Assembly (NCBI GenBank): GCA_947561395.2
Contig: OX387183.1
Coordinates: 4,211,883 to 4,275,882, forward strand
Direction: 5' to 3'
Length of the DNA stretch: 64,000 bases
DNA from: Buxus sempervirens
Lineage: Eukaryota; Streptophyta; Magnoliopsida; Buxales; Buxaceae
The translations under genes were made by a program, and so were the position numbers. Under the pieces are notes generated by a model. The model was not told the DNA's origin. It saw only the letters and a program-made list of their open reading frames with translations, and made no database searches. Shown piece by piece: positions 1,574 to 63,512 of this stretch; the first letter of the stretch is position 1, and each line of letters starts with the position of its first letter.

Positions 1574-1661
1574 AACCGCCCTTTTTCTACAGTTTTGGCA
1601 GAAGGGCTATGCAACCGCATATTGAAGACGGTTTTGGCTCAACCGTTCTGAATGCGCGGTT
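1574..1661. promoter_or_regulatory. Dyad cluster, AACCGC type, after pol (3 sites)
   Basis: Three 21-bp inverted repeats at 1574-1594, 1613-1633 and 1641-1661, each about AACCGC-N9-GCGGTT with small deviations. Spacers are 18 and 7 bp. The same half-site recurs at the gene A promoter, the gene B promoter and the U3 of this element. I see no equivalent cluster at this spot in elements 2 or 3. Confidence 0.65.
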
Positions 1662-2081
1662 TTATGCAGCAAAATTGAATTGAGCAGATTTTCTGCACAG
1701 GACTGAACCAGTAGGCTGGGGCAGGCCCCCTGGAAGTCGGAAAGAAACTTGGGGATGAGTCTAAGGGTTCCAAGGGAGACGAATTGGCTTCCTCCTCATT
1801 AACTGAAATACCTTTTTTGCCCAACTTACTTCAATTCATCCAACTATATGGGATTAAAGCATTACGGACCAATTTACAATAAAAACACACAAAAATGAAA
1901 ACTATATTTTGGCCAATGATGAGAAATCAGTGACTTTTCATTAAAACTGTCAGTTTTTACAAGCATATGAGAGTTCTGAGGCCAATAGTATAAAAACCTA
2001 TTTTGTATTCTCCATCTTTCCACTAGTGGAGTTTCTCTTTGTACAGGAGTGTAAAAAAGAAAAAATATACAATAAAAGGGG

Positions 2082-3735
2082 CTAATCTCTTTCCCCTAGC
2101 CTTTCCTCAAGCTCTCTGATCCGAGCCGCCTGAACCGCCACAAGCCTTTCAGCCCCCTCTGCATCTGGGTCACTGAGGAATGAGATGACGTCATCTGAGA
2201 GAGTCTGCCTAGTCCTCATATCTCGGAGCCTGGCCATGGTTTCATCATGCCTACGCCATGCAGCTCTCACCTCAAAGCGACGGGCCTGTATCTGCTCTGA
2301 TAACCGTCTCTCCAGATCTTCCTTCTCCAATCTCAAAGTACGGGCCTCCTCCACCCATATGAGCTGAAGCCGCCTATGAGAAGCCCGCTCGGTCTCCAAG
2401 AGGTCCTCATAAGTAGGACACGGGATAGCAGGAGGATCCATCGGTATGGAAGCGCAGCTCTGCACCTGCTCTCTAATCCAGAAGATATAGTCCTTCTCAT
2501 GCAATTTGGAGAAGACAGGACCTCTCAAGAAGCAGGCCTGCGACCATTCCTTCAATAACCGGAAGCATAGGCCCATGGTAGCCGGTGTGAGCGGACCTAT
2601 GAGCTCTTCATATCCCTGAGGTACCAGAATCCCCTGCACCTCCTCTCCAAACTGTCGGATGACCCTCAAAGGCAAGTAGAGCAAGGCAGACCTCAAGCCC
2701 ATGAGCACAGCGAAGTTTTGGTCAGAGAAGCTGATCACTGTCTCGACGGAGGGCTGGTAAGCACCAGGCCATCTCACCTGGTCGTCCTGAAGAGTCCCCA
2801 AGAAAGCAAACCATCCCTGTTTGCCGCCATGTATATTGGGACACCCCCTGTTGCTCATCAAAACAGGAACGTCCAATCTGGGGAAGAAGCGCCGGGTTAT
2901 CTCTTCAACCTGACTCAGGTGGTCAAGTAACCAGAGCTGCACAAAACAGGGAAGCATTTCCAACCTTAGAAAATTTCAACATGGCAATAAAGATTACAAT
3001 TCAAAGAAAGAGATTCAGATTTTACCTGAAGTATAGGGGCGCAGGCAAGGAAACTTTTCTGCTTCCTGTGATAGCAGTCAGTCAAGGCCTGGTATATTTC
3101 AGCCAGGATCATAGGGGCAAGCCTTTCGCGCTCCCTAATTTGGCAAATGACTGAAATGAGGGATAAATCAACCTCGCTATCACCTCGGGGGAATAAAAGT
3201 TGATTGACCACTATCAATGTCAGAGCATTGAACCGGGCCGACTGGTTGGAGCTATTTAACAGCTTCTCAGTCAGAAATGACTTGGATAGGGTCAATAAAG
3301 CGTCGGCTTCCCTAACTCTTTCTTGTTAATCCCCAAAAAAGTGGAGGCTTCCTTTTTGAAGCTTGGTTTGAGAGGTGGGTTAACTACTTTCTTAGAATAA
3401 CTAAGGTTGAGGATGGTTTCAACCTCCTCGACTGTGGGGGTCATCTCTTTTTCCCCAAACCTGAAGAGGTTCAATTGAGGCTCCCAATGCCCAATTAGTG
3501 CCTCTATGATTTCCCATTTTAGAGGAATCTTTGGGATTGAAAGGAGGTGGCCTAGATTGGCAGAGGCCCAATCCATCTCATCTTGAGGGGTCATTGAGGA
3601 GACCCACCTCTCATAGAATGTATCTACAATGGCATACCTAGTCAAATTAGGATGTTTAGACCTAATTTTTGGTCTAGGTGCTAATATTTCAGGTACAGAA
3701 GATGAAGAAGGCACAGAAGCTGAACCAGAAGCCAT
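2082..3735 (-). pseudogene. Antisense gene A, PMD-like protein, one frameshift (element 1)
   Basis: Minus-strand gene in two exons: 3735-3026 (start MASGSASVP) and 2936-2082, joined at CAG|GTAAAA and TTGTGCAG|CT. The first exon has the block FRFGEKEMTPTVEEVETI, which resembles the plant mobile domain (PMD, aminotransferase-like) family. The second exon begins LWLLDHLSQVEEI and ends in a long charged coiled coil. Compared with the intact copy in element 3 (58902-57188), one base is missing in a G run near 3305-3315, so the frame closes at 3292 and resumes in another frame from 3295. The product would act in the plant cell, possibly in the nucleus, but its biochemical role is unknown. No other break was noticed. 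Confidence 0.8.
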
Positions 3736-4207
3736 TAATGGGCAAAAGTGGATTAAAGGCAGCTAGGAGAGAGAAAATCGCCGAAACAGGGGGTTTCTGA
3801 CCTAAGCAATACGTCAAAATGACATCCTGCCCGCAATTTGCGGTTTTAAAATAACCTAAGGGCGAAAACCGCATACACAGAACGGTTGTGCCTGAACCGC
3901 ACTTAATATGCGGTTACATTCCCGCAAAGTTTAAAAACCGCGGGATAAGTACGGTTCTTGCACAACCGCCCTGAATGTACGGTTTTTGCACAAAAAAAGG
4001 GTTTTACTTCTTTCTTTTAATAAGTCATGTTCACAGAAAACCTGTTACCTGTATAACAATTGTAACATGACAAACATACAAAAATAAACAAAAAAAGAAA
4101 CAAAACCAAAAAAAAAAATCTTCTCTTTTCATATAAACTGCCAATGAATACATCAAGTTTATGTACAAATATCTGATAAATCCTAATCTAGACCTATCTC
4201 TAACAGG
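3736..4207. other. Spacer between antisense genes A and B (element 1)
   Basis: Non-coding. It is the upstream region of gene A (minus strand) and the 3' flank of gene B. It holds the dyad cluster 3867-3984 and A-rich sequence up to 4135. A weak TATA-like stretch (RC of TTTTAAAATAA, about 3844-3854) lies between the dyads and the gene A start. Confidence 0.7.
3867..3984. promoter_or_regulatory. Dyad cluster upstream of gene A (element 1, 4 sites)
   Basis: Four 21-bp AACCGC-N9-GCGGTT-type dyads at 3867-3887, 3895-3915, 3936-3956 and 3964-3984. Spacers are 7, 20 and 7 bp. The cluster lies about 130 bp upstream of the gene A start codon on the minus strand, a promoter-like position. The 9-bp centre varies while the arms are kept. 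Confidence 0.7.
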
Positions 4208-7139
4208 TCAATCCCTATCGCCTCTACCCCGCCGTCGCTGCCGGATGAAGAAATGATCTAAGAAGCGCTGGCTAGCGGAAGATGAAGGCTCACCAAGCGA
4301 GGATGGACCAACAGGAGGCACCAGGTCTGCAGGAGGTGCAGGATCGGTAGAAGAGGCTGAGGCTGGAACTGGATCATCCCGGGTCAGGTCCATGAAGCAT
4401 GAAACTGAAATGTCCGTCGCCAAAGGGACCAGCTCCAGAACCCGAGAGTCCTCCTCTCTCATAAGCTCGGCCGCCTCTGGCTCAGCTACACCAGCATCCT
4501 CCTCTCTCGCAGGCTCGACCACCTAATGAACCGCGGGAACCTCCAAGTCACCCTCCGCTGTCTCGGGAGCAGTCTCTGGTTCAGATGCAGGAGCGGTCTC
4601 AGGCACAGGTGCAGCCTCGGGCATCTCGGCCGACTCAGGAACTACACCAGCAGAGGTAGCCTCGGCCGCCACCTCGCTCTCTCTCTCTCTCCGGGATCTC
4701 TACATCTCCTAAAGAGAAGGACAAAGTGCGGGAACTGGATGGAGAAGCCACCACATCCTCCTGAAAGGCAAAGACAGATTGATCAGTTTTTTTTTATAAG
4801 CAGAAAAGACAAGAAAAAATACAGAAACCAAAAAAGACAGACCTGAGCTCCTGAAGGCCCTGCCTGACCCTGGGCACTGGCCAACTGGGCCCGCAAGTCA
4901 GCAATGAGAGCGGCCTGCCCAGTAATGATGACATCGCTCTCAGCAATGGCGGCGTCCCTCTCAGCCAGCTGGCGCTCCAGATCCGTATATCGAGCCCGGA
5001 CCTCCTCCAGCTGTGCCTCCTGAAATAAGATAAGAAGAGAAAAGATATCAGTAAATAAGAAAGAAAGAAAGACTAGAAGAATTTACAAGAAAGGGAGGTT
5101 CATACCGTGGTGTCATAGAGGCGGATCACTACCCCTCCTATCTCAGTAACTCCACCTCGAACGGGCATGGGCTGCATCAGACAACCCACTGAGACCTGCC
5201 CGAACCAGGTATCATAGTCACCATCGACTAAAAGGCCATCTCCTGCCTCCCACTCGCCGAAATGGGCAGGGTCGAATGGACCAGGAGGGATGAAAGGTGC
5301 TGTATCTGGAGGAGCCACTGGGATCCGGAGCTCGCCAGTATGCTGGAAGAAGAAGCGCTCCCCGAGGTACCATATACTGCCCAACTGCCCGATAAAGAAT
5401 GGGTACCTTTGGCGCCGCTGATCCAGGGCGAAAGCGTCATCCACAAAGGGCTGAAAAGCCAGCTCGTCATGCAGGCCGTCAAGACGGGGGACAGATAGCT
5501 GAGGGTAAACAAAGAAGAATATCAGAATCTGATAAAAAGGAGAAAAGGAAATGAAGAAAAGAGAGACGGGAAAAGTGCTTACCTCTCTCCTGAAGGTCCT
5601 GTCCAGGTGAGCCCTGGCCGACCTAGGGCGACTCTTCTCTGAGTCACGCCTAATCTGATTCCATCGACGGGCCAAGGGAAATGTCCCCTCAGACAAGGTG
5701 GAGGTAGGGCGAAAGTGGGCCACATAGACCCGAGCAAAGAACTGAAAAGAAAAAAGAGAAGAGAAGAAGAAAAAAGAAAAAAGAACACCAAAAAAAAAGA
5801 AAAAAGAGGTTAAGCAAAAAAAGAAAAAAAAAGAAGAAGAGAGAAAAGAAAGGAAAGGAAGAAGAAAAGAATTTGTACCTGCAGAAAGGGCCAGAAAAAT
5901 CTGCAACCTACTCCGGCTCCCCTGGGAGAAGACAGGCCAGAAACCACTCGTCGAAGGCCCGCTAGCAGGGTGCCATAAACCAGCTGGCCCCAGGCATAGT
6001 CCCTCGCTCGGTGCAGATCCCGGAGAAGACTCAAGAAATGGGGGCTGACTGAAGTAGTATCCTCCAAGCAGAAGCAGGAGCCCATCATCAGAAGAAAAAG
6101 AAATCTGAAAGCCATCGGGAAACTGGGATGATCCGCTGCTAGGGTGCTGAATCCCCTCTCCACAAATGCCTCCCTCAACCATGTCCGGGAGATACGAGTG
6201 ATCCTGCTCCGATCCCACGCCTCCACGGGCATCTCATCATATCCTAACAGCTCGGCAATCTCCAAGTCCGCCGGCCGATCCATCTCAGTGATGACATCTC
6301 CAGTCATCCTGATCCCGGTAATGAGAGCGAAGTCGGAAGGACGAATACCGATCTCCACATCAGGCAGGTGAAAGCTCAGGGTCTCCGGGAAAAAGCGCTC
6401 CAACAAAGCCAAGATCAAAGGCCGATCCTGACGAACGCCGGTGATGGTGATAAAAGGGCCAAATCCAAAACGGCCCATCTCTCGGCGCAGAGAAGACGAG
6501 CAAGCCCCTACAACATCAGCAAAAAGGGCCCAGCTCCCTCGGAAATGGGAAGAAGGGTATCTAAGGGGGATGTCCGCCTTGACGCCTGCCGAAGGATGCG
6601 TCGCCAAACCACTAAGAAGAGAGGTGTCCCGGATCTGATCTGCTATCTCTGCAGGAATGGCGACACAGCTCCCTCGGAAATGGGAAGAAGGGTATCTAAG
6701 GGGGATGTCCGCCTTGACGCCTGCCGAAGGATGCGTCGCCAAACCACTAAGAAGAGAGGTGTCCCGGATCTGATCTGCTATCTCTGCAGGAATGGCGACA
6801 CGGGTCGCCCGGGCTCCTGCCCTACCTCTACGACGGCCTCCCCTACGCTCTCGGACCTCACCAGCAGGCTAGAAAGGCAGATAAAAGAGGGTTTAAGTTG
6901 AATGTGATAAAAGAAAGGCCGGGTTTTAAAAAAGGGAAAGGGAATACCTCTGGGATCAACTCCAGCGAATCCCCAGACGCCCCAGAGTCTGAATCTGAAA
7001 GCTCCAGACCACTGGGAGAAGAAGGCTCAGGGTCTGGCTCAGCCCTAGAGGAAGACGCCACATCGGCCGGATCCCTCCGAACCCTCGAAGATGAAGGCTC
7101 ATCTACGGGACCCCGAGAAGCGCGATGTGTACGGGCCAT
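4208..7139 (-). pseudogene. Antisense gene B, PMD-like protein with breaks (element 1)
   Basis: Minus-strand gene in six exons by comparison with element 3: 7139-6948, 6868-5879, 5741-5583, 5498-5106, 5019-4843 and 4760-4208, all with GT/AG borders. Exon 1 starts MARTHRASRGP and is Ser/Arg-rich. Exon 2 begins with an RG-rich stretch and carries the PMD-like block ERFFPETLSFHLPDVEIGI. Exon 5 is a coiled coil; exon 6 is acidic, ending in RQRRRGRGDRD. Exon 3 has the same length (159 bases) as in element 3. Exons 1-5 are open and in phase. Breaks: length change in a GA repeat (4673-4691) shifts the frame in exon 6, and a TAG lies at 4523-4525. Exon 2 also has an in-frame 135-bp tandem duplication (6531-6800). 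The role is unknown. Confidence 0.8.
6531..6800 (-). repeat. 135-bp tandem duplication inside gene B exon 2
   Basis: Two copies, 6531-6665 and 6666-6800, look identical by eye. The period of 135 bases is 45 codons, so the frame is kept. It duplicates the stretch just before the PMD-like core (VAIPAEIADQIRDTSLL to SSHFRGS). Elements 2 and 3 have one copy, so this is recent and specific to element 1. Confidence 0.9.
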
Positions 7140-8534
7140 CTACAGGATCAAATTGCAGGGAGAAATTCATTATGTTTCTACTTTTAAAGTCATAAATTTC
7201 TTTCATGTTCTTCTTAAAAACTGTTGTTCTTTAGATTAACGAAATTTGTTTTGTTTGCAGAAGAAAAGGAAATCGGAGAAGACACTTTAGAAAGCGCCCG
7301 GCCGAACCAGGATTCGATTTCTTTTATTCTTTATTAATTTCTTTATTATTTCTGTTATATATAAGAATTATATATAAGAAACAAAATTTCCTATATATCT
7401 TTCTTATAGAAAAAAAAAAAAAGAAGAAGAAGAAGAAAAGAAAAAAAAAGAGGGTTGTTTTTTGAAGCAAGCTATTCAGAATTTTCAATTCATTTCCAAA
7501 TTTTAGGATTCTGATAAGTTTACAAATTGTCTAAAGCCCTAAACTATTAAATGTGTTCTACTTGTCAGGTTTACAGAGGAAAGACAGTAGGAAGGACAGT
7601 CAAATCAGGACCCTAGCTAACGGGAAGTGCCAAGCTAGGTTCAATCCTATTCATTCTAATGGAGTGTCAGCATTAAATGGGTCCAAGAGCAATCCATACC
7701 AGACATCCGAATGTTCAATATTGATGGATCAAAATCAATGAGACCTTGACAATAAGTCAGAGCATGTGCAGAAAATAGCCAGTATCCAGAAGCATGTTAG
7801 GACTGAACACAAGTGACCAGAAAAGAAAGAGCAAACGCGTTCAGATATACATCAAGGCATAATTCCAACAAGAGCAACAAGACAATGTCATCAAAATTAA
7901 TATGGCAAATCAAGGCACCACACTAAATAAAATCAAGTGTTCGTCCATACATTAGCTCAAAGTTCATGTTCTCGGATAAAAGTGCTGCAGAAAAATGATC
8001 AAGATATGAACCAGTTCGAAATCTAAAGTGCATTTCAATCAATAACAGGAGATTAAATTCCTACATGAACCAGGATCATTTACTCAGTGATTCAAGATGT
8101 TAGAGCTCAGATTGGTTGCTTGCCAAAAGGAATGAGTATTCGGCCACTTACTTGTGGTAGCTGAAATCAAAGCTTTGCAATGAAAAATCGAAGCTGTGGC
8201 CTCACCGGAACCCCGACTGCACTCGATTGATGGCGTGGTTGAAGAAGAGTTCCAGTCGCCAAATTCTCACAGCCCAAACAGCGGTCAAGTCATGGCAGGA
8301 AGAAGAAATCGTTCGAATACCCGCCGGAAAGTGCCGTAGTTCACCAGGAGAAAAACAGAAATCACCGGGAGAAGATGATGTCACCGAAGGAGTTGTCTTC
8401 GTCGGAAGAGAAGAGAAGAAAACCGGAAGAAAAGCACGGTCGCCAGAGAAGAGGAACAGCACCAGAGTTCTAGGGTTTTCGCGAACGAAATGAAGCCAGG
8501 CGCGGTCACGGCCTCGGTTATATGAAACCTAGAG

Positions 8535-8633
8535 AACCGCATATACAGAACGGTTAGTATTGCAAGTGCCCAAAACCGCACATACAGCACGGTTGAAATT
8601 GAAAATGCTAAAAACCGCATGTTCAGTACAGTT
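8535..8633. promoter_or_regulatory. Dyad cluster upstream of gene B (element 1, 3 sites)
   Basis: Three 21-bp AACCGC-type dyads at 8535-8555, 8574-8594 and 8613-8633, separated by exactly 18 bp each (39-bp period). A minus-strand ATATAA (8519-8524) lies just 10 bp downstream in the gene B direction, as expected for sites upstream of a core promoter. Confidence 0.7.
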
Positions 8634-8756
8634 GGCACCCAAAAATGAATTTCCAAAACTTTTTTCAATCTATCTCAAAGGATCTATGTCCAGGGCAGTT
8701 GTGAATTGCAAGAAACACCATCCTATCAACTTTTGCTTTTTAAAATTTGCTCGAAT

Positions 8757-8786
8757 CTCACTTCATAGCCACGAGTGCTCTGTGAG
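8757..8786 (+). other. Conserved hairpin before the polypurine tract (element 1)
   Basis: Inverted repeat CTCAC...GTGAG around TTCATAGCCACGAG. It is matched at 38608-38637 (CTCACT/AGTGAG) and in two copies in element 3 (63764-63793 and 63908-63938), where the stem is TCCAC/GTGGA. The paired change suggests a conserved structure. Confidence 0.5.
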
Positions 8787-8959
8787 AGGCGAGGAGAGGA
8801 TTTGACCCTTAAGGTTAGGGACTTTTCATCAAATCCTTTAAACAAATTCTTTTTCAAAAACCACATTGGAATTCTTGCAGCTCATAATCGAATGGACATG
8901 ATCCTGAGGGGTGCAATTTGCGGGTCTTTTGCTCTCCGATGCCAATTGATTCCAATCCC

Positions 8960-8976
8960 AGCGAAGAGGGGGCAGT
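8960..8976 (+). other. Polypurine tract (element 1)
   Basis: AGCGAAGAGGGGGCAG directly before the 3' LTR start at 8977. This is where plus-strand DNA synthesis is primed in LTR retrotransposons. Element 2 has AGCAAAGAGGGGGCAG at the same place. Confidence 0.85.
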
Positions 8977-9089
8977 TGTAGACACCCCAAATTGCACCAC
9001 AATATAAGAGATTAACTAAGAAAGGCTCCAAAGGTCTTATTTGAGCCTTGACATATGTCAAACTTTCAAAAACTTTCAAAATCAGTGCC

Positions 9090-9355
9090 AACCGCACTGT
9101 GTATGCAGTTTTTATAATCTCGGTTTCAACCGCTCTGCATGTGCGGTTGCAACCGCACAAACAGCACGGTTCAGGTCCTTGCTTGTTGCGCTGGCGGCCA
9201 CGTGGCTTCGCGAAGCTTCGGCCGTTAAGCCGCGTGGACAGCACTCAATTAAAGCATAACTGAATTGAACCGTCCTGTATATGCGGTTTGGTCAAATTTG
9301 TATTGAACCGCACTTTGAGTGGCGGTTCTGTGGAAACCGCACTGAGTATACGGTT
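9090..9355. promoter_or_regulatory. U3 dyad cluster, AACCGC type (element 1, 6 sites)
   Basis: Dyads at 9090-9110, 9128-9148, 9151-9171, 9268-9288, 9306-9327 (22 bp) and 9335-9355. The arms match those at the gene A and gene B promoters of the same element. The cluster ends about 200 bp upstream of the TATA box at 9557. A CACGTG G-box lies between the two halves at about 9198-9203. Confidence 0.7.
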
Positions 9356-11391: not shown

Positions 11392-12202
11392 GAACCGGGC
11401 GGGCCAAACCCAATGCGGCCCACCCGAGCCTTGTTATGTGAAATTGATGCATGAATTGCGTGGTTTGGCCGAGACAAAGGGCAAGGGCCTACCGGGCCCG
11501 TCAAAGCCCACCAACCGAACCAAGGAAGGGTGCAAACCCTAATTTCTGGTAACTTGGGTTTACAAGCCCAGATTTGGACTACGGGCCCCAAGCCCAGTGT
11601 CCAGCTCACTTTGGCAGATTAAAAAGATAAATCTAATAAAAATACTTGGCCACCATGTGGGCCCACCTTAGGGGCCCACAAACCAGTCCGGCCCACTTGT
11701 GCATGAAAAACACTTAATCTTCAAAGCTTAACTTAAAGTAAAATCTGTTGAACTAACCAAAGCCCAAAGGACCTCTCAGGCTAGACTGAGGTCCACAAGG
11801 GTACACGGGCTTCACTAAGCCCACCAAGGATACCGTGGGCCTTCCAACAGGGCCCACCCAACCAGACCCAGATCACCTAATTAAACAAGATAAAAGCAAT
11901 TAAAGGAACCCACACCACTCAGGTGGTCCCGCCAGACTTAACCAAACTGCATATCGGATTAGGAATCGGGTGAGACCAATGGAAGCTGACTCAAACCAGG
12001 GAACCCACGGGACCCGTCATCCGACGGGGTGGACCGGGGTGTCTACGGACTTCCCCGGACTACAACCGAGAACAGACTTAGAATCTCAAGCCGCAGACCA
12101 AAAGCCCTAATAGACAGGATTAGGCACCCAGGTGTCCGCCTGCACCCCATCAGGCGGTGGCGACTCCGAATTACCCCGTGCCGCGTTTCCCACGCGTACA
12201 CA
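11392..12202 (+). mobile_element. LTR-B copy 4, 3' part only
   Basis: 811 bp that match, in reverse complement, the 3' third of LTR-B copy 3 (30331-31145) almost base for base. It ends ...CGCGTACACA at the LTR-B terminus. A hairpin CCGCCTG/CAGGCGG (12136-12157) leads directly into TGGCGACTC (12158-12166). Its left edge is the exact terminus of element 1, so the missing 5' part is expected beyond element 1's own 5' LTR. Its right edge lies inside the element 2 5' LTR. Confidence 0.88.
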
Positions 12203-13403
12203 GCCATCTTTTATTCTGTATTCCTAAACTTGTCTCTAAGTACCTCAAGAGTCTCTCTAGCCGTAAAACGTGAAGAGAGAGCTAGGGGAAAAGTGAATGG
12301 GTGGATCCCTAGAATAGAACCCCATATCTGTTTTTCTCTTTTTTTATAGAATAAAGCCTTAGATTGTGTTTGTATACCCAAACCTATCTCCAAGTACCTC
12401 AAGAATCCTCTCTAGCCGTAAAACGTGAAGAGAGAGCTAGGGGAAAAGAGAATATCCTGATCATGTGCTCTAATCTATGAGATGTGGCTGCTTGGAATAT
12501 CCTGATCATGTTTTAATGGTTTTTATGTTGAATCTGAATGAATTATATGAATCCATGATGTTTATAGCATGAGATCCCCACTTTTTTCTAAAATTAGGAT
12601 TTTTCACATCTTTGCACCTACAGCACTGTTTTCGTGATTTTTGTGATATTAGGCTAAGATCCTGGATTTATCATGATCAATATGATAGATCTGGATTCAG
12701 AAGCCTGAAAGTAACTTCTAAGGTTTCATGATGTGGTTTTTGAGTCCTTTTTCACTTTTGAGAGAAGACCCTATGGTTTAAGTTCTCCCCTTTTGATGTT
12801 CTTCATCAACGTGGGTATTTTTGGATTTGATTTCTTGATTTAATGTGAAATTTGGGCTACATCTATGTCCTAGACTATTCAGGTTCAATTCTGAAATATT
12901 TTATAAAAATCATATTTTTCTAGATTTCTAGAATTTAACTTGAAGTCAGATTTTTGAAGATTTCACTTTAGATTGGCTTTATTTGATTTTATCTCAATTT
13001 TATTTTACTCATGAAACCCTAGGAATGGTATGATCATATTTGAAAGTTCTGGATCAATCAGGCTATTCGTATGAAAAAACCATACACTTTTGTTTTTTTG
13101 TGATTTTTCATGAATTTTGTAGCAAGCCTTTTTTCCTTTGAAAAACATGAACAATACCTGGCAACCACCTTGTGTGGATGAATAGGGGTGCCTAACACCT
13201 TCCCCTGTTCATAACCTAATCCCCTTACCCATCTCTGGTTGTTTTTTTAATAGGGTTATTTTTACCTTAAATTTGCCTTTTTGTGCTTATTTGATATTTT
13301 GGTGTCCATTCACACCTAAACAGAATGGTGGCGACTCTTTGTTTTTAACCAATCCCGTGTGATGATCTGGAAGTCATCGAATTGATTTTTTCCATATCTC
13401 ACA
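12203..13403 (+). mobile_element. 5' LTR of element 2, 3' part
   Basis: Matches 39424-40636 of the 3' LTR with about 20 mismatches per 900 bases by hand count, plus small indels. It starts within the R-like region because LTR-B copy 4 is inserted there. It has two tandem hairpin units with core CCGTAAAACG (12253-12288 and 12408-12443). Near the end, CCATTC/GAATGG (13306-13328) leads into TGGCGACTC (13329-13337). It ends TATCTCACA at 13403. Confidence 0.9.
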
Positions 13404-13405
13404 AC

Positions 13406-13424
13406 TGGAGACTTCGCTGGGGAT
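13406..13424 (+). other. Primer-binding site (element 2, mutated)
   Basis: TGGAGACTTCGCTGGGGAT, two bases after the LTR end. It is a decayed version of the element 3 site (45465-45483), which resembles the complement of a tRNA-Arg 3' end. Confidence 0.75.
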
Positions 13425-13861
13425 TTGTGGATTTCAGCCTTTTGGTTTTTGTTCATGTTTTGGTGTTTTTGCTTGCTTGCTATTTTTAGCATGTTTGATA
13501 TGTTCTAGGGTTTTCCCTTGCTATTTTGTGTTATTAAGTATGTTTGGTATGTTTTAAATCTGATTTATTGCTTAAAAGCATGGGTGTAGAAACATGTTCA
13601 ATTCTGATTTATAGGATTGTTTCTAGATGCATGCATAGGGGGGGGGTTCGTTTTGTTGGACCATGCTTATTTCTTGCTATACTTTAATAATAGCATGTTT
13701 TGATTTTAAGCATGATCTCCATGATGATTTTTTTGGTGTATAACATGATCACATGTTTGTATGATTTGGGGTGATTCTTATGAGCTTCTTTAGGTGCTAT
13801 AGGATTGTTTTGTGTAATTTGTTTACTTTAAATATGCTTTCCTATTATGCCTTGGTTTGTT

Positions 13862-14300
13862 TATGCATGGTTGCGAAAAGAGTGGTAAGGGTTTGGGACG
13901 TTGTGAATGCACTCAATTTTTACAATGCACTGTGCACATTTTATTTTTACATAGCCTACCTATAACTTATAGGAAGTTGAACCCGAATGTGTGTAGCTTG
14001 GCACAACGAGGTCGATACTTCGGAAAGCGAAAGTGAAAACATTCACCTTAGAACTTTGGGCCAATGATGTGATGATAACATGGATCTGTGATTCGATCCT
14101 GGTCATCACTAGGCTTGAGTGCTAAGTTGCCATTAAGCCAAAACCCAAAACCCCTACGCTTGAAGGTGGAGTTACACATTTTTAGCTAAAGTACACAATT
14201 ACGTGGGGATATGGGTTTGTAATTGTGGGAAGGCCGTTTGCATGGTTAGCAAGCCAAGGCATAATTCGGATGCCATATTGAAGGTAAACAAGGTAACTTT
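13862..14300 (+). other. Conserved leader block (element 2)
   Basis: Roughly 430 bp that align well by eye with 46367-46810 of element 3, although the flanks differ strongly. Reading frames are not shared between the two copies, so the constraint looks non-coding. Position after the PBS fits a packaging or dimerisation signal, but this is inference. Confidence 0.55.
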
Positions 14301-14673
14301 AATTTTTGCATTATTTTCATGTCATAGGGGTGTCATGGTGTCCATCGGTTTGGGATAAAATTGGTCCCAAATAGGCATGTTTCCTAAAATTGGTGTAGCC
14401 CGTAGGAAGAGTTTTTAACTCTGTTCAGGATCAATCCTACCCAATGTTCATACTAGAGGCAACCAAAGGGTACCAAATTCTTGAATATGGTGTCAATTTG
14501 AAGGGTACATGTGCCCTCCTAAACAGGGATTTTTGCAAATAGGTCAAAATCCACTTTGGGATAGTTTAGAAGCCTAGCAAGGGTGAACCGTATGTTTGGA
14601 TGAGCAATCAAATTGGTCAAATCATGTAAAAATTGAAAAAAACAGAAAAGAGCTCCGTAAACCGCATTTATTA

Positions 14674-14778
14674 CACGAGCTGGGCTCACCCGTATTAGTT
14701 ATACGGGCTGGGCTCGCCCGTGTTTACTATACGGTCACGGCTTGCTCGTAATTTAAATACGGGCAAGGCCGGACCGTA
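14674..14778. promoter_or_regulatory. Leader dyad cluster, TACGGG type (element 2, 4 sites)
   Basis: Dyads at 14674-14694, 14702-14722, 14730-14750 and 14758-14778, each 21 bp with 7-bp AT-rich spacers, so the period is exactly 28 bp. Arms approximate TACGGG/CCCGTA; the 9-bp centres are GC-rich and vary. Extra half-sites flank the cluster. Confidence 0.75.
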
Positions 14779-14924
14779 CTGTATATGCGGTCTTAGCGGA
14801 AAATTCAATTTTAATTAGTTTTTTCCACTAAATCCTGTTACTTTAACCTTTAAATGATGATAAAGGGAAATGAGTTTGAATAAAATACTTCAAAAAAATA
14901 AATAAATAAATGTGAAAGAAAATC

Positions 14925-15515
14925 TTTTGGGCCTCTGAAAGCCTTTGAATTTCAGACTTTTTCTCAAAAAAATCTTCGGGCCTCTGAAAGCCTTTGAATT
15001 TCAAACCTTTTTCAAAAATATCCCTGGGCCTCTGAAAGCCTTTGAATTTCAGATTTTTTTCCTTTGGGCCTCTGAAAGCCTTTGAATTTCAGATCTTCTT
15101 GTTTTGGGCCTCTGAAAGCCTTTGAATTTCAGACTTTATCTTTTGGACCTCTGAAAGCCTTTGAATTTCAGATCTTTTTCCTTTGGGCCTCTGAAAGCCT
15201 TTGAATTTCAGATCTTTTTCTTTTGGGCCTCTGAAAGCCTTTGAATTTTAGACTTTATCTTTTGGGCCTCTGAAAGCCTTTGAATTTCAGATCTTTTTCT
15301 TTTGGGCCTCTGAAAGCCTTTGAATTTCAGACTTTTTCCTTTGGGCCTCTGAAAGCCTTTGAATTTCAGACCTTTCTCAAAAATCTATGGGCCTTTGAAA
15401 GCTTTTGAATTTCAGACTTTTTCCAAAAGTATCCCTGGGCCTCTGAAAGCCTTTGAATTTCAGACCTTTTCCAAAATACCCCTGGGCCCCTGAAAGCCTC
15501 TGAATTTCAGATCCT
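14925..15515 (+). repeat. 40-bp tandem array in the gag leader (element 2)
   Basis: About 14 units around GGGCCTCTGAAAGCC followed by TTTGAATTTCAGA and a variable T-rich tail. The period is near 40 bp. It occupies the same place as the unrelated array of element 3 (47420-48715). Both arrays end in a related stretch containing GGAAGCCCTAGAATATTCCA. Confidence 0.9.
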
Positions 15516-15755
15516 TTTCTTTTTTTGTGGGACCTATTGGAAGCCCTAGAATATTCCAACAATTAAATTCAAAAAAAAAAAAAAAAGAAGCAACTAAAGA
15601 AAAAAATCCAAAATCGTGTTCACCCAGCCTGCACATAGGCATTCATAAGTATGTGAATGAGATTAAATTGGCACTGATATTTTTCCTTTATTTTTTACCA
15701 GGTACCAAGTACACTTGCAACCATAGCTCCTGTAACCAGATCAAGAGCTCGCGCC

Positions 15756-24846: not shown

Positions 24847-24851
24847 ATTGG

Positions 24852-46977: not shown

Positions 46978-47115
46978 AACCGGCAACTCAGGCCGGTTAA
47001 TAACAGCTCTAATCATATCCGGTACATATTTCCGGATACAAAGACATATGCGGATATCCGGTTAGATTGACCGGATACAATAAGGCATATTCTTATCCGG
47101 AATAATATACCGGAT
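46978..47115. promoter_or_regulatory. Leader dyad cluster, ATCCGG type (element 3, 4 sites)
   Basis: Dyads at 46978-46998 (arms AACCGG/CCGGTT), 47017-47037, 47056-47076 and 47095-47115. All spacers are 18 bp. Geometry and period match the U3 cluster. Confidence 0.8.
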
Positions 47116-47419: not shown

Positions 47420-48715
47420 AAAAAGTGGGATACTTGGAAGCCCTAGAATTCTCCATGAGAACCTTGGTTGGTTATTTTTATCAATCAAATAAAAAAAAAA
47501 AATGAAAACCTTTGGTTGGTTATTTTTATCAATCAAATCAAAACATTTGTGGGATACTTGGATAGAGTAGTCCAAGACACCTTGGTTGGTTATTTTTATC
47601 AATCAAATCAAAAAAAAAATGAAAACCTTTGGTTGGTTATTTTTATCAATCAAATCAAAACATTTGTGGGATACTTGGATAGAATAGTCCAAGACACCTT
47701 TGGTTGGTTATTTTTATCAATCAAATCAAAACATTTGTGGGATACTTGGAAGCCCTAGAATATTCCAAGACACCTTTGGTTGGTTATTTTTATCAATCAA
47801 ATCAAAACATTTGTGGGATACTTGGATAGAGTAGTCCAAGACACCTTTGGTTGATTATTTTTATCAATCAAATCAAAACATTTGTGGGATACTTGGAAGC
47901 CCTAGAATATTCCAAGACACCTTTGGTTGGTTATTTTTATCAATCAAATCAAAACATTTGTGGGATACTTGGAAGCCCTAGAATATTCCAAGACACCTTT
48001 GGTTGGTTATTTTTATCAATCAAATCAAAACATTTGTGGGATACTTGGATAGAGTAGTCCAAGACACCTTTGGTTGATTATTTTTATCAATCAAATCAAA
48101 ACATTTGTGGGATACTTGGATAGAGTAGTCCAAGACACCTTTGGTTGATTATTTTTATCAATCAAATCAAAACATTTGTGGGATACTTGGAAGCCCTAGA
48201 ATATTCCAAGACACCTTTGGTTGGTTATTTTTATCAATCAAATCAAAACATTTGTGGGATACTTGGATAGAATATTCCAAGATACCTTTGGTTGGTTATT
48301 TTTATCAATCAAATCAAAAAAAAAATGAAAACCTTGGTTGGTTATTTTTATCAATCAAATCAAAAAAAAAAAAAATTGGGACCCTTGGAAGCCCTAGAAT
48401 ATTCCATAAAAACCTTGGTTGGTTATTTTTATCAATCAAATCAAAAAAAAAAAAAAAATTGGGACCCTTGGAAGCCCTAGAATATTCCATAAAAACCTTG
48501 GTTGGTTATTTTTATCAATCAAATCAAAAAAAAATTGGGACCCTTGGAAGCCCTAGAATATTCCATGAAAACCTTGGTTGGTTATTTTTATCAATCAAAT
48601 CAAAAAAAAAATTGGGACCCTTGGAAGCCCTAGAATATTCCATAAAAACCTTGGTTGGTTATTTTTATCAATCAAACCAAAAAAAATTATGGGACCCTTG
48701 GAAGCCCTAGAATAT
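47420..48715 (+). repeat. Tandem array of about 70-80 bp units in the gag leader (element 3)
   Basis: About 18 units built from TTGGTTGGTTATTTTTATC, then AATCAAATCAAAA, then a GGGATACTTGGA segment, with or without GGAAGCCCTAGAATATTCCA. Unit length varies from about 47 to 80 bp because segments are present or absent. It lies at the same position as the unrelated 40-bp array in element 2. Confidence 0.92.
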
Positions 48716-48941
48716 TCCAACACAAAATCAAAACAAAAAAAAAAACAAAAAAAACAAAAAACAAAAAAAAAAAAAAAATCTGGATTGGTGTTCACCTAAC
48801 CTACTGGTTTACATATATAGGGGTGTGACTCAAGTTAAATGGAAGCTAACATGTTCTATTCATTTTTTCCCTCAGGTACATTTAACCCAGGTGCACTTAT
48901 TTGCAGTCATTGCTCCCGTGACCAGATCCAAAGCAAGAGCC

Positions 48942-57187: not shown

Positions 57188-58097
57188 CTAGTCTCCTAGC
57201 CGCTCCTCAAGCTCCCGAATCCGAGCTGCCTGAGCTGCAATGACTCCTGAAGCCCCCTCCGCAGCAGGATCACTCAGGAAGGAAATGACCTCATCTGAAA
57301 GGGCCTGCTGGATCCTCATACTCCTAAGGCTGGCCAAAGTATCCTGGTACTTCTGCCGGATCATACGGACCTCGAAGCGACGGGCCTGCCTCTGCTCCTC
57401 CAGCTTTTCTTCCACGGCAATACGGCGTGAGGTCTGCTCATCAAGCTGCTTCTCCAGATAAGCACTCTGTATCCTGAGCTCCTGGGCCTCCCGTACCCAT
57501 ATCTGCTGAAGCCGCTTATGAGAAGCCCGCTCAGACTCTAGAATGTCCTCATAGATGGGAGCCAAGACTACAGGAGGATCTTCGGGTACTGGGGCCTGAG
57601 TCTGTATCTGTTCCTTGATCCAGAAGAAATAATCCTTCACATGGGTTTCCGAGAAGACGGGACCATGCATAAAGCGGACATAAGACCACTCCTTCATCAA
57701 CCAGGCATTCAGCTTCATAGAAAGAGGCCCAAGACGATCCTCATATCCACATGGGATGATAATCCCCTGGGTCGCTCGGAACTGACGAAGGACCCGCAGA
57801 GGAAGATAAAGCACTGCATGTCTCAGGCCAGCCAGAATCAAAAAGTTGCGGTCTCGGAAGCTAATCACTGTCTCCGCATTAGGCTGGTAAGTACCAGGCC
57901 ATCTCACCTGGTCATCCTGAAGCGAGCCCAAGAAAGTGAACCAGCCCTGTTTGCCCCCTGGAATATCGGGGCACCCCCTGTTGCTCATCAAGAGAGGGAC
58001 TTTCAGACTCGGGAAGAAGTGTCGATTGATCTCTTCAATCTGGCTCAAATGATCAAGTAGCCAAAGCTGCAAATGATCAAATGATCAGCACATTGTA

Positions 58098-58139
<42 letters not shown>

Positions 58140-58902
58140 AGCAAAAAAGGCAAAAAGAAAGCCAAAAAGAAAGAAAAAAAAAAAACTTGTTTACCTGCAG
58201 GATCTGGGCACATGCTAAGAAGCGTTTCGACTTCCTGTTGTAGCAGTCAGTCAAGGCCTGATATATCCCAGCTAAAATCATAGGGGCCAACCTCTCCCGC
58301 TCCCTGACCTGGCATATAACAGAAATCAAGGCCAAGTCCACCTCGTCATCCTCCCGTGGGAAAAGCAACTGGTTGACCACTATTAGGGTCAACGCATTGA
58401 ATCGGGCCTCCTTATCTTCTCCCCTCAAAAGCTTCTCAGTCAAAAAAGCCTTAGATAGGGTCAAAAGGGTGTCAGAATCCCCCAAGTCCTTCTTCCCTAT
58501 GCCCAAAAAAGTAGAAGCTTCCTTCTTATAACTGGGCCTAAGAGGTGGATTCACCACCTTCTCATCAAACCTCAGGCCCAGGATGGTTTCCACCTCTTCA
58601 ATGGTTGGGGTCATCTCATGGGTCCCAAAACGGAACAAGTTGAGATCAGGAACCCAATGACCAATCATGGCCTCTATAATCTCCCACCTGAAGGGAACCT
58701 TGGGAATGAGCAGGGTATGGCCTAGATTGGTGGTACCCCATCTCCTCTCCTCATCTAGGGACATAGAGTTAACCCACCTTGTGTAAAAGGAATCCACAGG
58801 GTTGTACCTAGTGAGATTTGGGGGTTTTGATCTAAAAGGCTGTTTTGCAGGGGAGGCAGTGTGGACAGACAATAATGGGGCAGAAGATGATCCGGATTCC
58901 AT
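57188..58902 (-). CDS. Antisense gene A, PMD-like protein, intact (element 3)
   Basis: Two exons on the minus strand: 58902-58195 (708 bases, start MESGSSSAP) and 58066-57188 (879 bases with stop), joined by CTGCAG|GTAAAC and TTTGCAG|CT in phase 0. The 528-residue protein has a Ser-rich N-terminus, a PMD-like region (about 40-240; FRFGTHEMTPTIEEVETILG) and a second conserved block (LWLLDHLSQIEEINRHFF). A long charged coiled coil follows (about 400-500; ERASHKRLQQIWVREA) and ends at ELEERLGD. The intron has a 39-base A run on the plus strand, i.e. a T tract before the acceptor. Host PMD proteins (MAIN, MAIL1) are nuclear and affect transposon silencing; whether this protein does is unknown. 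An upstream TATA box and four dyads suggest its own promoter. Confidence 0.88.
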
Positions 58903-59013: not shown

Positions 59014-59020
59014 ATTTATA
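59014..59020 (-). promoter_or_regulatory. TATA box of antisense gene A (element 3)
   Basis: Minus-strand TATAAAT in context GCTATAAATGC, about 112 bp upstream of the gene A ATG and 14 bp downstream (minus direction) of the nearest dyad. Confidence 0.75.
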
Positions 59021-59034: not shown

Positions 59035-59171
59035 ATCCGGTAACTCAGACCGGATACAAAGGCTTTGGTAATATCCGGATAAGTATACCGGATACAAAGT
59101 ATCTCATGAATATCCGGTATAACATACCGGATACAAAGACCAATCCATGTATCCGGTATGTCAGACCGGAT
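59035..59171. promoter_or_regulatory. Dyad cluster upstream of gene A (element 3, 4 sites)
   Basis: Dyads at 59035-59055, 59073-59093, 59112-59132 and 59151-59171, separated by 17, 18 and 18 bp. Arms ATCCGG/CCGGAT match those in the LTR and leader of the same element. Confidence 0.82.
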
Positions 59172-59380: not shown

Positions 59381-62074
59381 CTACTCCTGTGCAGGATCAT
59401 CCCCACGTCCTCGGCCGCGTCCACCTCTACGGCGTCTCCCCCAAAGGGCTCGGCCTCTAGAGTATGCAAGAATCCGCTCGGCCGCATGGCGAGGATGCCG
59501 ACCTACCACCTGCTGAAGATGATACTCCAAGCAATAATCCTCGAGATCTGGGGGAGGAGCAGGAGTAGAATCGGGGGAAGAAGCCTCGGGCTCAGCAGCA
59601 ACCGGCCCAACTGGGCCCTCATCCAAAGCATCCTCTGCTCCCGCAGCTCCAGAAGGCCCAGCATCAGCAGCAGAGGGGCCGGGATCAGAAGTAGCTGAGT
59701 CCACAGAAAAAAGAAAAATCAGAAGATTCAGATATAAGGAAGAATAAAAGAGGAGAATGAAAAGAAGATCATACCAGGAATGTCTGCAGAGGGAGCAGGG
59801 GGATCCGGCTCGTCAGGATCAGCAGCTGGGACATCCACAGGATCAGAGGCCCGAGCAGGAGATGGGTCAGGAATCAGGAAATCATGCCTAAAGAAGGCAT
59901 CCTGATCATGGACCGGGCCCTGCACAAGTCAAACAAGCATATCAGAATAGCAGAAACAGAAAAATAATGAAAGAAATGAACATATAAGAAGGCCAAGTAC
60001 CTGTCTAGCCTGGAGCTCAGCAACCAAGGCCTCCAGCTCCCTGATCCGGGCATCCCGCTGAGCCACGACCGCATCGTGCTCCGCGATCATATCATCGATC
60101 GCAGCCCGCTGGCTCTCGAACCGGTCCCGAATGGAGTTCAGCTCGTGTACCTGCCAGCAAGAACGGAAGCATGGTCAAAAAGGCATAAGGAAGGAAAAGA
60201 GGATAAAAATGGGAAGAATACAAGGCTTACCGTGTCCTCATGGATCCGGATACGGATCCCGCCAATCTCAGTCACCCCAGCACGAGTGGGTCGATCCATC
60301 AAGCATCCAATAGACACCCGCTGGAACCACTCGTCATAATCTCCAGCTACTGTAAGCCCCTCCGCATCCAAGAAGTGATCGAACTGATCAACATCAAAGC
60401 CCGGGAGGAGTGTGTCGGGACCCACAGCAGGAGGAGGGACGGGGATGCGAAGTGCGCCAGTGTGCTGGTGGTACAGGCGCTCTCCCAAGTACATCACCCT
60501 ACCAAGCCTCCCAAGGAAGCACTGGTAAGACTGACGTCGGAGATCTCGCTCAAAAGCATCCTGTACTGCTATCTCACGGGCGACTCCGACATCCACGTCA
60601 TCTGGACGGGATAGAATGAGCTGCAAAGAAGCGAAGTGGTCAGATACAGTCAAGGTACAGGAAAGAAAATAAAAGAAAAAAAGATAGAGGACTTACATCA
60701 GATCGGCGTGCACGGTCTAAGTGCACCCGAGCGGTACGAGGCTGGCTCCTATCGGCATCTCGAACCTGGGCCGACCATCGCAGGGCCACAGGGAAATCCG
60801 CAACCTCAGGAACCGGGGAGGGGCGGAAGAAGGTCATATAGGTGTACATGAACACCTAGCAAAAGAATAATCAGTCAGGAAAGGATAAAAGCCTAAAGAA
60901 TTAAGCCAGACAGATGAATGCAATACCTGTAGAATCTGCCAGAAGAACCGGCTGCTAACTCCATCACCTCTCGGAGATGCTAAGCCTCGAACCGCTCGGC
61001 ACAGCCCGGCCAAGATGGTCCCATAGATCAGCCGACCCCATGCTAGCTGGCGGGTCTGCTGGAAATCTCTCAAGGCGTCCAAAAAGAGCGGACTGACACC
61101 AGTCGTATCCTCCGGGAAGAAGCAGCTCCCCAACATCAGCAGAAATACATGTCGGAAGATCGGCGCAAAGGCTGCATCCTCCACAGAAACGGTCTCGTGC
61201 CTCCTCTCAAAATGGCGAGCCAGACTCTCCCGCAACCAACTAATGGAGAGCCGGCCACTCCGCCCATCCCAAGCAGTAGGAGACAGGGCCTGATATCCCA
61301 GGAGAAGTCCCATATCCTCCGCAGAAGGCCGCTCCAAGACGATGGTCCGCCCCGTCAGAGGAATGCCAGTAATCATCACAAAATCGGAGGGGCGGATCCC
61401 CAGCTCCACGTCCGGCAGGTGGAACGACTGTGTCTCTGGAAAGTATCTCTCCATCATGGCAAAGATGAGTGGACGGTCGGCTCTGAATGATGGAATGCTG
61501 AGGAAGTGATCCAGATGACACCTCCCAAACTCCCGCCTGAGTGCTGGAGAAAGCGACTGAGCTAGATCACTAAATCTGCCCCAGCTACCTCGTAAGTGGG
61601 AGGAATAATAGGGAAGCGGCACATCTGCCCGGATGCACATAGAGGGGTGGCTATCCAAGCCATGGAGGAGCTCTGTATCATGCACAGAAGCCCTCAACTC
61701 CTCAGAGACCCCTGCCAGAGCTACAGCAACCCCCTCTGGAGCCATATCTCTGGCTCTGCCTCGGCCTCTACCACGGCCTCTCTCGCCCTCAGGGGCCTGA
61801 TCCTGAACTCTGCCTCTGCCTCTGCCTCGACCTCGAGCCGGTGCAACCACGGGCTAAAATCCAAGGGCAGTGTGAAGATTGTGTGGGAAAGGAGAATAGA
61901 AGAAAGAAAAGAAAGGAAAATTTTTTGAAAGCCTACCTCAGCAGAGCTCTCTCGAGAGCCGCCTAATGGCTCGGACAGGGTGGCACTAGAACTAGTCTCA
62001 ATCCGAGCTCGAGAAGAAGAAGGCCGGTCGGCCGGGTCAACCTCCTCACGCACACGAGAGCGACTCCTAGCCAT
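59381..62074 (-). CDS. Antisense gene B, PMD-like protein, intact 7-exon gene (element 3)
   Basis: Exons on the minus strand: 62074-61937, 61853-60927, 60855-60697, 60620-60231, 60150-60001, 59919-59775 and 59694-59381, all with GT/AG borders and matching phases. The total is 2223 bases, 740 residues and a stop. Exon 1 starts MARSRSRVREE and is Ser/Arg-rich. Exon 2 begins with an RG-rich tract and carries the PMD-like core ERYFPETQSFHLPDVELGI. Exon 4 has GERLYHQHTGALRIPVPPP, exon 5 is a coiled coil, exons 6-7 are acidic, and the end is basic (RRRRGGRGRGRG). RG-rich and coiled-coil parts suggest nucleic-acid binding and oligomerisation, but this is inference. Elements 1 and 2 carry broken copies with the same intron positions. 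Confidence 0.9.
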
Positions 62075-63451
62075 CTACAACAGGGAAGTGTCCTATGAAA
62101 TTCAGTCCTACTTTACTTTGAATCTCAATTCAGTTCAAATTTATCAGGAATACTACTTTGTTTTGATCTATATTCATGGCATATTTGTTAGGAGTAATGC
62201 TTTACTTTTGGGTCCAGATTCAATTCATATTTAATAGGACTTTGGTCTCTTCAAAGCTATTGTCAAGAATTCTAACTTAATCTGGTTGTCTGTCACAGTT
62301 CAAGTGTTTCTGGGAAGATTTGAGACTAATGCAGAAGTTGTAATGAGTGGTTCTCCAGATACGAGTTGGTCTCAGGAATCATCAAGGTGGCAAAAACACA
62401 GGGAAATATAATAGTTCAGTACAATCAGAGCATTACTACAATTTGAATGAAGGAAATGTCAATTGCAAGAAAAGAATTACCATATGATCAAGAATTGGCC
62501 ATCAAGTCCGAAAAGAGCCAATGGCATCAATTCAGAATAACATCAAGGTGATCATGCAAAGAGAAGTCAAGAGCAAGTCATGGGCAGACAGAGTATCACT
62601 TTATTCAGAACAGATGAAAATGAAAAAAAAAAAATCAATGAAGGCATCAAAATCAGGTTGTCAAGCTTCTTCTAATCAAGAGGAACCATGGGAATTCAGC
62701 CAAGACAAATATGGGGAAATGCAAAATCATGCCATTCAGTGGGAAAGGCAATCCCAATCAGTGCAAGTAAAAGTCATGACATCACAAAAAAATTTGAAGC
62801 ATTGTAATCCAGCATGGTTTGTCCAAAACAACCAAGGCAATGGCAAGATTGGATTCATTAAAGCATCAATTCAGAAATTCAAACTCAAACTTGGCAGAAA
62901 TTCAGAAATTCATGCAATTGACAGAAATCCAGACTTGGCAGATGCAGGCAATTGGGGAAATGGACAATTCTCCACAATTAAGAGAAATCCTAGCATGGCA
63001 AAATTTCTTGGATGTGGCAGTAAGCACATTACAAAGGAAAAATAGCACATGGCATTGAAATTCGTCCAAATAAGCATGAATGGATTACCCAGAACAATTC
63101 CAATCTCACTAACCTGGGCAAGCAGTTGAGAAGCAAGTGTCTGATTGCAAATGGGACTCAAGGGACCAGTAGCCGGAGCAAGACCTCCAATGTCAGGCTG
63201 AGAAATCACAAGAGAATGGGAAAAATCGAGCTAGGGCTCGACTGCGGCTGTCAAAGAGCAATCACTGAAGTCGCCGGAGTTGCAGGTCGTCGCCGGCAGC
63301 AATAGGTATCGCCGGAGTTGCTGGAGATCGCCGGAGAAGCAGGACGAGTCGTCGGGTGAAGAAGAAGAAGGAGATGGCCGGTCTGGGTAATCGGAGCAAG
63401 AAGAAAAGGAATGAAAGGTCGCGGTCGCGCGCGACTTAAGTAAACATGCGG

Positions 63452-63511
63452 GATCCGGATACTCAGGCCGGATACCCGCAGACCCTGTATTATCCGGATA
63501 CACTTACCGGA
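63452..63511. promoter_or_regulatory. Dyad cluster upstream of gene B (element 3, 2 sites)
   Basis: Dyads at 63452-63472 and 63491-63511, spaced by 18 bp, arms ATCCGG/CCGGAT. Position relative to gene B matches the clusters of elements 1 and 2. Confidence 0.75.
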
Positions 63512-63512
63512 T

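Follow-up and report, generated by a model that had tools for sequence, protein, structure and literature searches.

A 64,000-nucleotide stretch of the Buxus sempervirens genome (C3:4211883-4275882, genome 676.5 Mb; hereafter the window) holds three related long Ty3/gypsy elements, E1, E2 and E3 (elements 1 to 3, the 5′ part of E1 lying beyond the window), together with inserted long terminal repeats (LTRs). In these elements, the interval between pol and the 3′ LTR carries two antisense genes, A and B. We find that the elements, and one inserted LTR (LTR-B copy 1), bear arrayed dyads of fixed geometry, two 6-bp arms about a 9-bp centre, whose half-site differs between groups of elements and recurs in the U3 region of the LTR, in the leader and beside the antisense genes. 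From these sequence features, we consider the dyads to be probable operators for an element-encoded regulator of both sense and antisense promoters, most likely a dimer of plant mobile domain (PMD) proteins.

The initial annotation of the window had claimed about 50 such dyads, nearly all exactly 21 bp long, and both figures held: we placed 50 (16 in E1, 13 in E2, 14 in E3 and seven in LTR-B copy 1), 48 of them exactly 21 bp in length. The exceptions are a site in E1 (9306; 10-bp centre, 22 bp) and one in E2 (38423; 8-bp centre, 20 bp), leaving 15 E1 and 12 E2 sites with the 9-bp centre. The total includes cluster members with up to three mismatches among the 12 arm bases, the worst being 38450 in E2. 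Half-sites are AACCG[C/T] in E1, TACGGG in E2 and ATCCGG in E3, where 13 of the 14 dyads have exact ATCCGG/CCGGAT arms and the remaining one, at 46978, reads AACCGG/CCGGTT. The conserved half-sites exceed 6 bp, extending to approximately AACCGCACT, TACGGGC and TATCCGG, respectively. Between sites of one element, the arms are 81–98% alike, the centres 39–66% and the flanks 30–51%, in keeping with the variable centre described at the outset. Within clusters, dyads are mostly spaced by 28 or 38–39 bp (some by 23, 41, 48 or 100 bp), two spacings that differ by about one helical turn. The 28-bp array of E2 amounts to a 7-bp half-site that flips direction every 14 bp, so that neither phase of the array is privileged. 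In E1 (window 1574-9355), 12 of 15 dyads join a C-type to a T-type arm, as judged by the innermost base (P = 0.02 under random dealing), and the same order is kept in several orthologous promoters; this pairing could reflect a heterodimer of the two PMD proteins.

Chance does not account for these sites. At gap 9 and with no more than one mismatch, the window holds 18 AACCGC, 9 TACGGG and 14 ATCCGG sites, 41 in total, of which 39 are clustered and two (2339 and 57341) isolated; shuffled window DNA did not reproduce these counts, with means over 40 dinucleotide shuffles of 0.05, 0.025 and 0. A de novo scan of 4096 half-sites at 31 gaps placed the E3 type at the top with nine perfect sites with distinct centres, where 60 dinucleotide shuffles gave at most four; the E1 and E2 types, which have few perfect sites, do not stand out in that scan. 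Genome-wide, ATCCGG-N9-CCGGAT occurs 32,622 times vs 36 for the reversed pattern, AACCGY-N9-RCGGTT 15,414 times vs 1,171 for its reversed control, and TACGGG-N9-CCCGTA 8,067 times vs 25. For the ATCCGG/CCGGAT pair, all 21 gaps from 10 to 30 sum to just 1,625 (control 778), and many of those among the sites listed are echoes within the same arrays. The excess over the reversed pattern, and of gap 9 over gaps 10–30, thus argues that the dyads are not fortuitous. When the window, 20 random 10-kb stretches (which hold few related copies) and one chosen 4.1-kb stretch were scanned for clusters without supervision, gap 9 returned 12 clusters of at least three dyads (seven in the window, four in random stretches and one in the chosen stretch), gap 12 one, gap 14 four and gap 16 five, and gaps 6, 8 and 10 returned none. 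The 13 and 10 clusters at gaps 7 and 11 are, in our interpretation, mostly echoes that arise from longer arms and from the alternating array of E2. For perfect sites in the random stretches, gap 9 is the richest (130 dyads vs 57–117 at other gaps from 3 to 30), and its clusters of at least two number only two, not above other gaps (0–5).

The clusters lie at equivalent places in the three elements. In E3, four ATCCGG-N9-CCGGAT dyads with a period of 39 bp occupy U3 (43280-43417), four more, beginning with the AACCGG/CCGGTT site, lie in the leader (46978-47115) between a site resembling a primer binding site (45465) and gag, four form the gene B promoter cluster (59035-59171), 15 bp from a minus-strand TATAAAT at 59020, and two lie on the 3′ LTR side of gene A (63453-63512), where the gene A promoter is assigned from place. 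E2 carries four TACGGG-type dyads of period 28 bp in the leader (14674-14778), three at the gene B promoter (33884-33960), with TATATAAA at 33847 on the minus strand downstream of the dyads, three on the 3′ LTR side of gene A (38395-38470, including the 8-bp-centre site and the one with three mismatches) and three in the 3′ LTR U3 (38950-39026). E1 has four dyads at the gene B promoter (3867-3984), three of period 39 bp on the 3′ LTR side of gene A (8535-8633) and six in the 3′ LTR U3 (9090-9355; sites at 9090, 9128, 9151, 9268, 9306 with its 10-bp centre, and 9335), as well as an extra cluster after pol (1574-1661, three dyads of the AACCG[C/T] type). LTR-B copy 1 carries five AACCGC-type dyads in U3 (23054-23278) and two further ones downstream (24049-24097). 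LTRs begin with the word TGTAGACACC at 8977 (E1), 38833 (E2), 43188 (E3) and 22475 (LTR-B copy 1), and their TATA boxes lie at 9557, 39241, 43576 and 23295, respectively, placing the last U3 dyad 202, 215, 159 and 17 bp before the TATA box. No clear TATA box was found for E1 gene B, E2 gene A or E3 gene A, and TATAACC is all that precedes E1 gene A in this respect. The pattern first noticed in the window, a constant geometry whose arms change, is seen at equivalent places of E1, E2 and E3: from the gene A side into U3, E1 and E2 share 73% mean column identity, and their arms differ at both clusters.

The same arrangement recurs in further copies. In five E3-type copies on C1, picked as looking complete from a site list that also contains partial copies (starts at 3409340, 3441586, 3679720, 4234113 and 4516490), perfect sites, assigned to places by distance, numbered 4/3/4/2/4, 4/3/3/2/4, 4/1/3/1/4, 4/2/4/2/4 and 3/3/4/2/3 at U3, leader, gene B, gene A and 3′ U3. 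One half-site is kept at U3, in the leader and beside both antisense genes, with perfect sites at all five places in all five chosen copies, in line with the check that the initial annotation had proposed for related elements. A region on C1 (3385808-3395481) considered as an LTR-B-type element was set aside because the 4.1-kb piece fetched from it consists of gag and leader from a relative of E3 with 89.5% identity. Viral contigs scanned with an E3 reverse transcriptase piece and a two-dyad E3 pattern gave no match.

The arms vary less than the sequence between them. Exon 1 of E3 gene B, used as a protein query, gave 5,858 candidates, of which 150 were scored, all 98–100% identical, and 320 bp upstream of gene B were taken for 40 of the lowest 43 in the scored list. 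Exact sites numbered four in 27 of these promoters, three in 10, two in two and one in one. Six promoters were set aside for indels >10 bp; in the remaining 34 plus the window copy, substitutions amounted to 11/1680 in arms (0.65%), 37/1260 in centres (2.9%), 171/1846 in linkers (9.3%) and 151/6303 in flanks. By column, 9 of 48 arm positions varied vs 16 of 36 in centres (P = 0.016) and 40 of 53 in linkers (P = 1e-8). A first count that scored gaps as changes found no difference in variable columns between arms and centres plus linkers (P = 1.0), and was replaced by the substitutions-only count. CpG changes affected 3/560 arm cells and 20/418 flank cells. The direction was the same in E1-type promoters (seven plus the window: arms 17/384, centres 32/288, linkers 30/272, flanks 128/1929; columns, arms vs centres plus linkers, P = 0.08) and in E2-type promoters (five plus the window: arms 9/216, centres 29/162, linkers 17/84, flanks 102/1265; columns P = 0.001).

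Dyads were also recovered from promoters chosen by gene content alone. From 118 matches to DUF7745, the domain found in gene B, 20 loci were picked, spread by open-frame length, and 1 kb upstream was taken without consulting the sites; 12 carried two or more dyads of no more than one mismatch each, all at the same distance, 323–427 bp before the domain match (seven of the AACCGC type and five of the TACGGG type). Gene B pieces and a 1.3-kb stretch at the expected place of gene A were then compared at these 12 loci, and gene A was found at 11. At the six AACCGC-type loci, gene A was 81–98% identical to that of E1 and 61–67% to that of E2, and at the five TACGGG-type loci it was 86–89% identical to that of E2 and 66–72% to that of E1, so that operator type matches gene A type at all 11 testable loci. 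The two gene A types differ at 47 of 262 columns in a diagnostic manner, most densely at columns 136–180. Between groups, gene A exon 1 is 52–69% and gene B exon 2 66–78% identical, and within the E2 group the values are 89% and 85–88% (few sequences in each case). Identity to E3 over the longest matched pieces of pol is 90% for E2 and 92% for E1 (79% for a 198-aa N-terminal piece of E2), vs only 52–53% for gene A exon 1. Gene A is the faster-changing gene and therefore fits a specificity determinant, without proving it.

The proteins encoded by these genes match plant mobile domain families. On the minus strand, gene A lies at 5100-6868 in E1 and 60138-61853 in E3 (several exons, the first PMD exon at about 60927-61715), and matches the plant mobile domain PF10536 at 1.6e-15 and 1.5e-14, respectively; the E1 copy contains an exact 135-bp tandem duplication (window 6531-6801). 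Gene B, also on the minus strand, lies at 2082-3735 in E1, with its frame broken near 3310, and at 57188-58902 in E3, with at least two exons (58195-58902 and about 57188-58072). Both copies match DUF7745 (PF24924), and exon 1 of the E3 copy matches PF24924 at 2.8e-17 and PF10536 at 2.4e-14 (above cut-off). These are the Pfam families of gypsy-encoded PMDs (clades PMD-A1 and PMD-A2). Both genes are apparently split into exons. The two E2 antisense frames scanned gave no Pfam match, and the E2 genes were identified by similarity to those of E1 and E3: gene A (34192-36566, minus strand) is decayed, with stops in exon 1, and gene B (29195-33748, minus strand) is split by an insertion at about 30331-33609. 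A domain search of E3 pol gave the order reverse transcriptase (225-385), RNase H (474-578), RVT_3 (633-751) and integrase (from 844), and found a G-patch in one frame each of E2 and E3. An extra RNase H between RNase H and integrase defines Ogre elements and is an order common to Retand, and a PMD in an extra open reading frame is reported for 57% of Ogre elements (PMC6317226). E3 pol has that additional RNase H, an order that fits Retand as well, and the PMD is present in the extra frame directly in E1 and E3 and by similarity in E2. Ten antisense frames gave no match to Transposase_28 (PF04195), the mark of the Retand TRP28 proteins, at E ≤ 0.1. An open frame matching zf-RVT (E = 6.9e-20; 42060-43004) lies just 5′ of the E3 5′ LTR and is a fragment of another kind of element or a gene. 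Tandem repeats lie just before gag, of about 40 bp in E2 (14923-15523) and about 71–77 bp in E3 (47461-48719).

The half-site had at first been taken as specific to each element. Arms do differ among E1, E2 and E3, but E1 and LTR-B copy 1 share theirs, and half-sites mark groups (three seen) rather than single elements and are common to different LTR families. An LTR at locus L003, 72% identical to LTR-B over 742 bp, carries AACCGC-type dyads (L003:3064-3192), as does LTR-B in the window, and an LTR at locus L015, 69% identical to LTR-B over the first 363 bp, carries five ATCCGG-type dyads (L015:1566-1805), of which two are exact and the other three have one or two mismatches; in both LTRs the dyads directly precede the TATA box. 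Either type, E1 or E3, can thus occur in related LTRs, and operators may possibly have been exchanged between LTR families. The 10-kb stretches of L015 and L003 contain no long open frame deciding whether a matching PMD gene is encoded. Two other repeats were considered and set aside. TGGGCC-N9-GGCCCA has eight perfect sites in LTR-B-like stretches (window 11658-31223) with five distinct centres, above the shuffle maximum of four; the sites are not clustered at promoters (in LTR-B copies 2 and 3, five of the eight lie >1 kb downstream of the TATA box; in LTR-B copy 1, one lies about 950 bp downstream of it; the remaining two belong to a fragment), several of the centres occur more than once and up to four sites appear at other gaps, so we do not count it as a further operator, though it is not fully explained. 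At 14935-15510, CTGAAA-GCCTTTGAA-TTTCAG has an almost invariant centre and is simply a 40-bp tandem repeat.

In the mechanism that we favour, the antisense PMD protein or proteins from the interval between pol and the 3′ LTR would bind the 21-bp sites as a dimer, one subunit per arm; a dimer is suggested by the symmetry of the dyads, and the 15 bp from arm to arm would hold both contacts in fixed register. Arrays would let dimers sit side by side at U3, the leader and the promoters of genes A and B, and since they lie at these places, the regulator would control both genomic RNA and its own synthesis, more likely by activation or relief of silencing than by repression. Each group has its own half-site, and the leading candidate for the determinant of this specificity is the protein of gene A, which evolves fast. 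Coiled-coil-like C-terminal stretches can be read by eye in the PMD proteins. The proposal in the initial annotation of a binding protein that co-evolves with its operators is partly supported by the geometry, the lower variation of the arms, the PMD/DUF7745 genes and the agreement of types at 11 of 11 loci; binding, the dimer, the sign of regulation and the role of gene A are inferred.

Several observations weigh against this mechanism. The leader clusters (46978-47115 and 14674-14778) are distant from every promoter found. A crude heptad count put the best coiled coil of gene B away from its C-terminal stretch, AlphaFold2 models of exon 1 of both proteins were poor (mean predicted local distance difference test scores of 43 and 50), and a profile search of solved structures gave no match for gene A and two insignificant ones for gene B (E = 0.13 and 1.3). 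Chromatin contact by the host PMD complex of MAIN and MAIL1 is given as not known in the excerpted text of PMC9899485. Arm columns were not significantly less variable than flank columns in the E3-type promoters (9/48 vs 48/183, P = 0.35); cells did differ (P = 8e-7), in counts that are not independent because promoter copies share ancestry. Eight of the 20 DUF7745 loci have no dyads in the upstream 1 kb, nor did any dyad-like alternative stand out there in a count of repeated 7-mers, so the dyad system appears confined to some DUF7745 lineages; seven of the eight are mutually related. These form a second DUF7745 lineage (L064, L066 and L068-L072) with open frames of 446–509 aa and no dyads in the upstream 1 kb. 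Gene B also splits the types (86–99% vs 77–79% identity to the E1 piece), and gene A and operator type are tied by plain family descent as well; since both proteins follow that descent, the association by itself fits cause and ancestry alike.

The same operators and element-encoded protein could instead constitute an autorepressor that limits expression and copy number, a reading we regard as unlikely. Sites near the antisense gene starts (15 bp from the TATA box at E3 gene B) and in U3 are what autorepression needs; however, the sites precede the TATA boxes found without covering them, the U3 sites of E1, E2 and E3 ending 159–215 bp upstream, and near-identical copies are numerous in the E3 group (150 of 150 scored at 98–100%), where most sites are intact, neither of which is a strong objection. 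It is distinctly unlikely that one or more host transcription factor dimers bind the sites, each retrotransposon group having settled on a different member. Plant factors such as auxin response factors can bind inverted half-sites at fixed spacing, and the sites sit where plant promoters are controlled, but between elements whose pol is about 90% identical the arms change and both the 9-bp spacing and the places stay, and operator type travels with antisense gene type.

We give very little credence to the arrays being functionless ordinary minisatellites of 28- or 39-bp units spread by slippage. Tandem Repeats Finder does report 28- and 39-bp arrays at some clusters, and five of the six promoter copies (among 40) with indels >10 bp lack 39–41 bp; yet the arms remain constant while centres and linkers drift, and a half-site recurs at no fewer than four separate places per element, at every one of which the groups differ in it. 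Hairpins of RNA or DNA, with a 6-bp stem and 9-nt loop, are an extremely improbable explanation. Every site is an inverted repeat, the arms are exactly complementary in 14 of 14 E3 sites, and the site at 46978 differs from the other E3 sites on both arms at once, whereas 13 of 15 E1, 4 of 7 LTR-B and 10 of 12 E2 sites have arms that are not exact complements, the half-site recurs within an element though any paired arms would do, and many sites lie upstream of TATA boxes.

Known systems offer partial parallels. TnpA of maize Spm/En binds repeated motifs at the element ends and acts on the promoter and on methylation; unlike the present case, it belongs to a DNA transposon, is an unrelated protein and has another motif layout. 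Tas of foamy viruses is encoded by a sense-strand gene, is not known to have arrayed group-specific dyads, and is an unrelated protein of an animal retrovirus. It is nonetheless a retroelement protein that is essential for, or binds, the LTR and an internal promoter (PMC8670036, PMC4929722). The initial annotation had likened the dyads to the targets of VANC proteins of Arabidopsis VANDAL transposons, a comparison that stands for the way of working and fails for membership. VANC proteins recognise short motifs of their own family in non-coding DNA, accumulated by tandem repeats, with motif and protein reported to diverge together, and the unrelated repeat AT9TSD1 carries the VANC6 motif (PMC5735166), resembling an LTR-B family with E1- or E3-type sites. 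In contrast to the Mutator-like DNA transposons that carry VANC, the carriers here are LTR elements with reverse transcriptase, RNase H and integrase, the antisense matches above cut-off are PMD/DUF7745, the sites are dyads of fixed spacing rather than short tandem-repeat motifs, and binding is our proposal. Antisense TRP28 (Transposase_28) reading frames of Retand share the place between pol and the 3′ LTR, predicted DNA binding and a suggested regulatory role; they have a different Pfam domain, and no binding sites or dyads are described in the excerpted text of that source (PMC11963269).

Host PMD proteins, which act in gene expression and silencing (PMC5418596, PMC7156037), provide a further comparison. 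MAIN and MAIL1 are host genes of the same domain family, two PMDs in one pathway that perhaps form heterodimers (PMC5418596), and a promoter motif (DOWN) is tied to their targets (PMC7156037, PMC9899485); unlike the dyads, the DOWN motif in the MORC1 promoter, CATGCAGTTT, has no 6-9-6 arrangement in the account given there. PMD proteins occur throughout angiosperms, their biochemical function being described as open, and include the gypsy clades PMD-A1 and PMD-A2 (PMC5418596). The presence of PMD in Ogre (PMC6317226) and in gypsy clades (PMC5418596), and a proposed regulatory role for antisense Retand proteins (PMC11963269), are thus already on record; among the open-licence papers listed on Ogre/Tat, PMD and retrotransposon-encoded factors, a set from which subscription papers are mostly absent, no title or opening of an abstract gave a prior description of such operators, nor did the excerpts consulted. 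What is new, as far as we have seen, is a candidate DNA ligand with group-specific arms.

The dyads thus supply a candidate ligand for PMD in three variants, with inherent specificity controls, and make operator exchange between families traceable inside one genome. More tentatively, and at a strength somewhat short of probable, gypsy-encoded PMDs may be dimeric sequence-specific regulators with fast turnover of specificity, splitting one lineage into regulatory groups inside a single genome that other LTR families join by acquiring the operator; on that view, the MAIN/MAIL proteins of the host would be their kin. To our knowledge, private element-encoded transcription systems in plants come only from DNA transposons (VANC and TnpA). 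If our reading is true, an LTR retrotransposon lineage would own a private, diverging transcription system of this kind.

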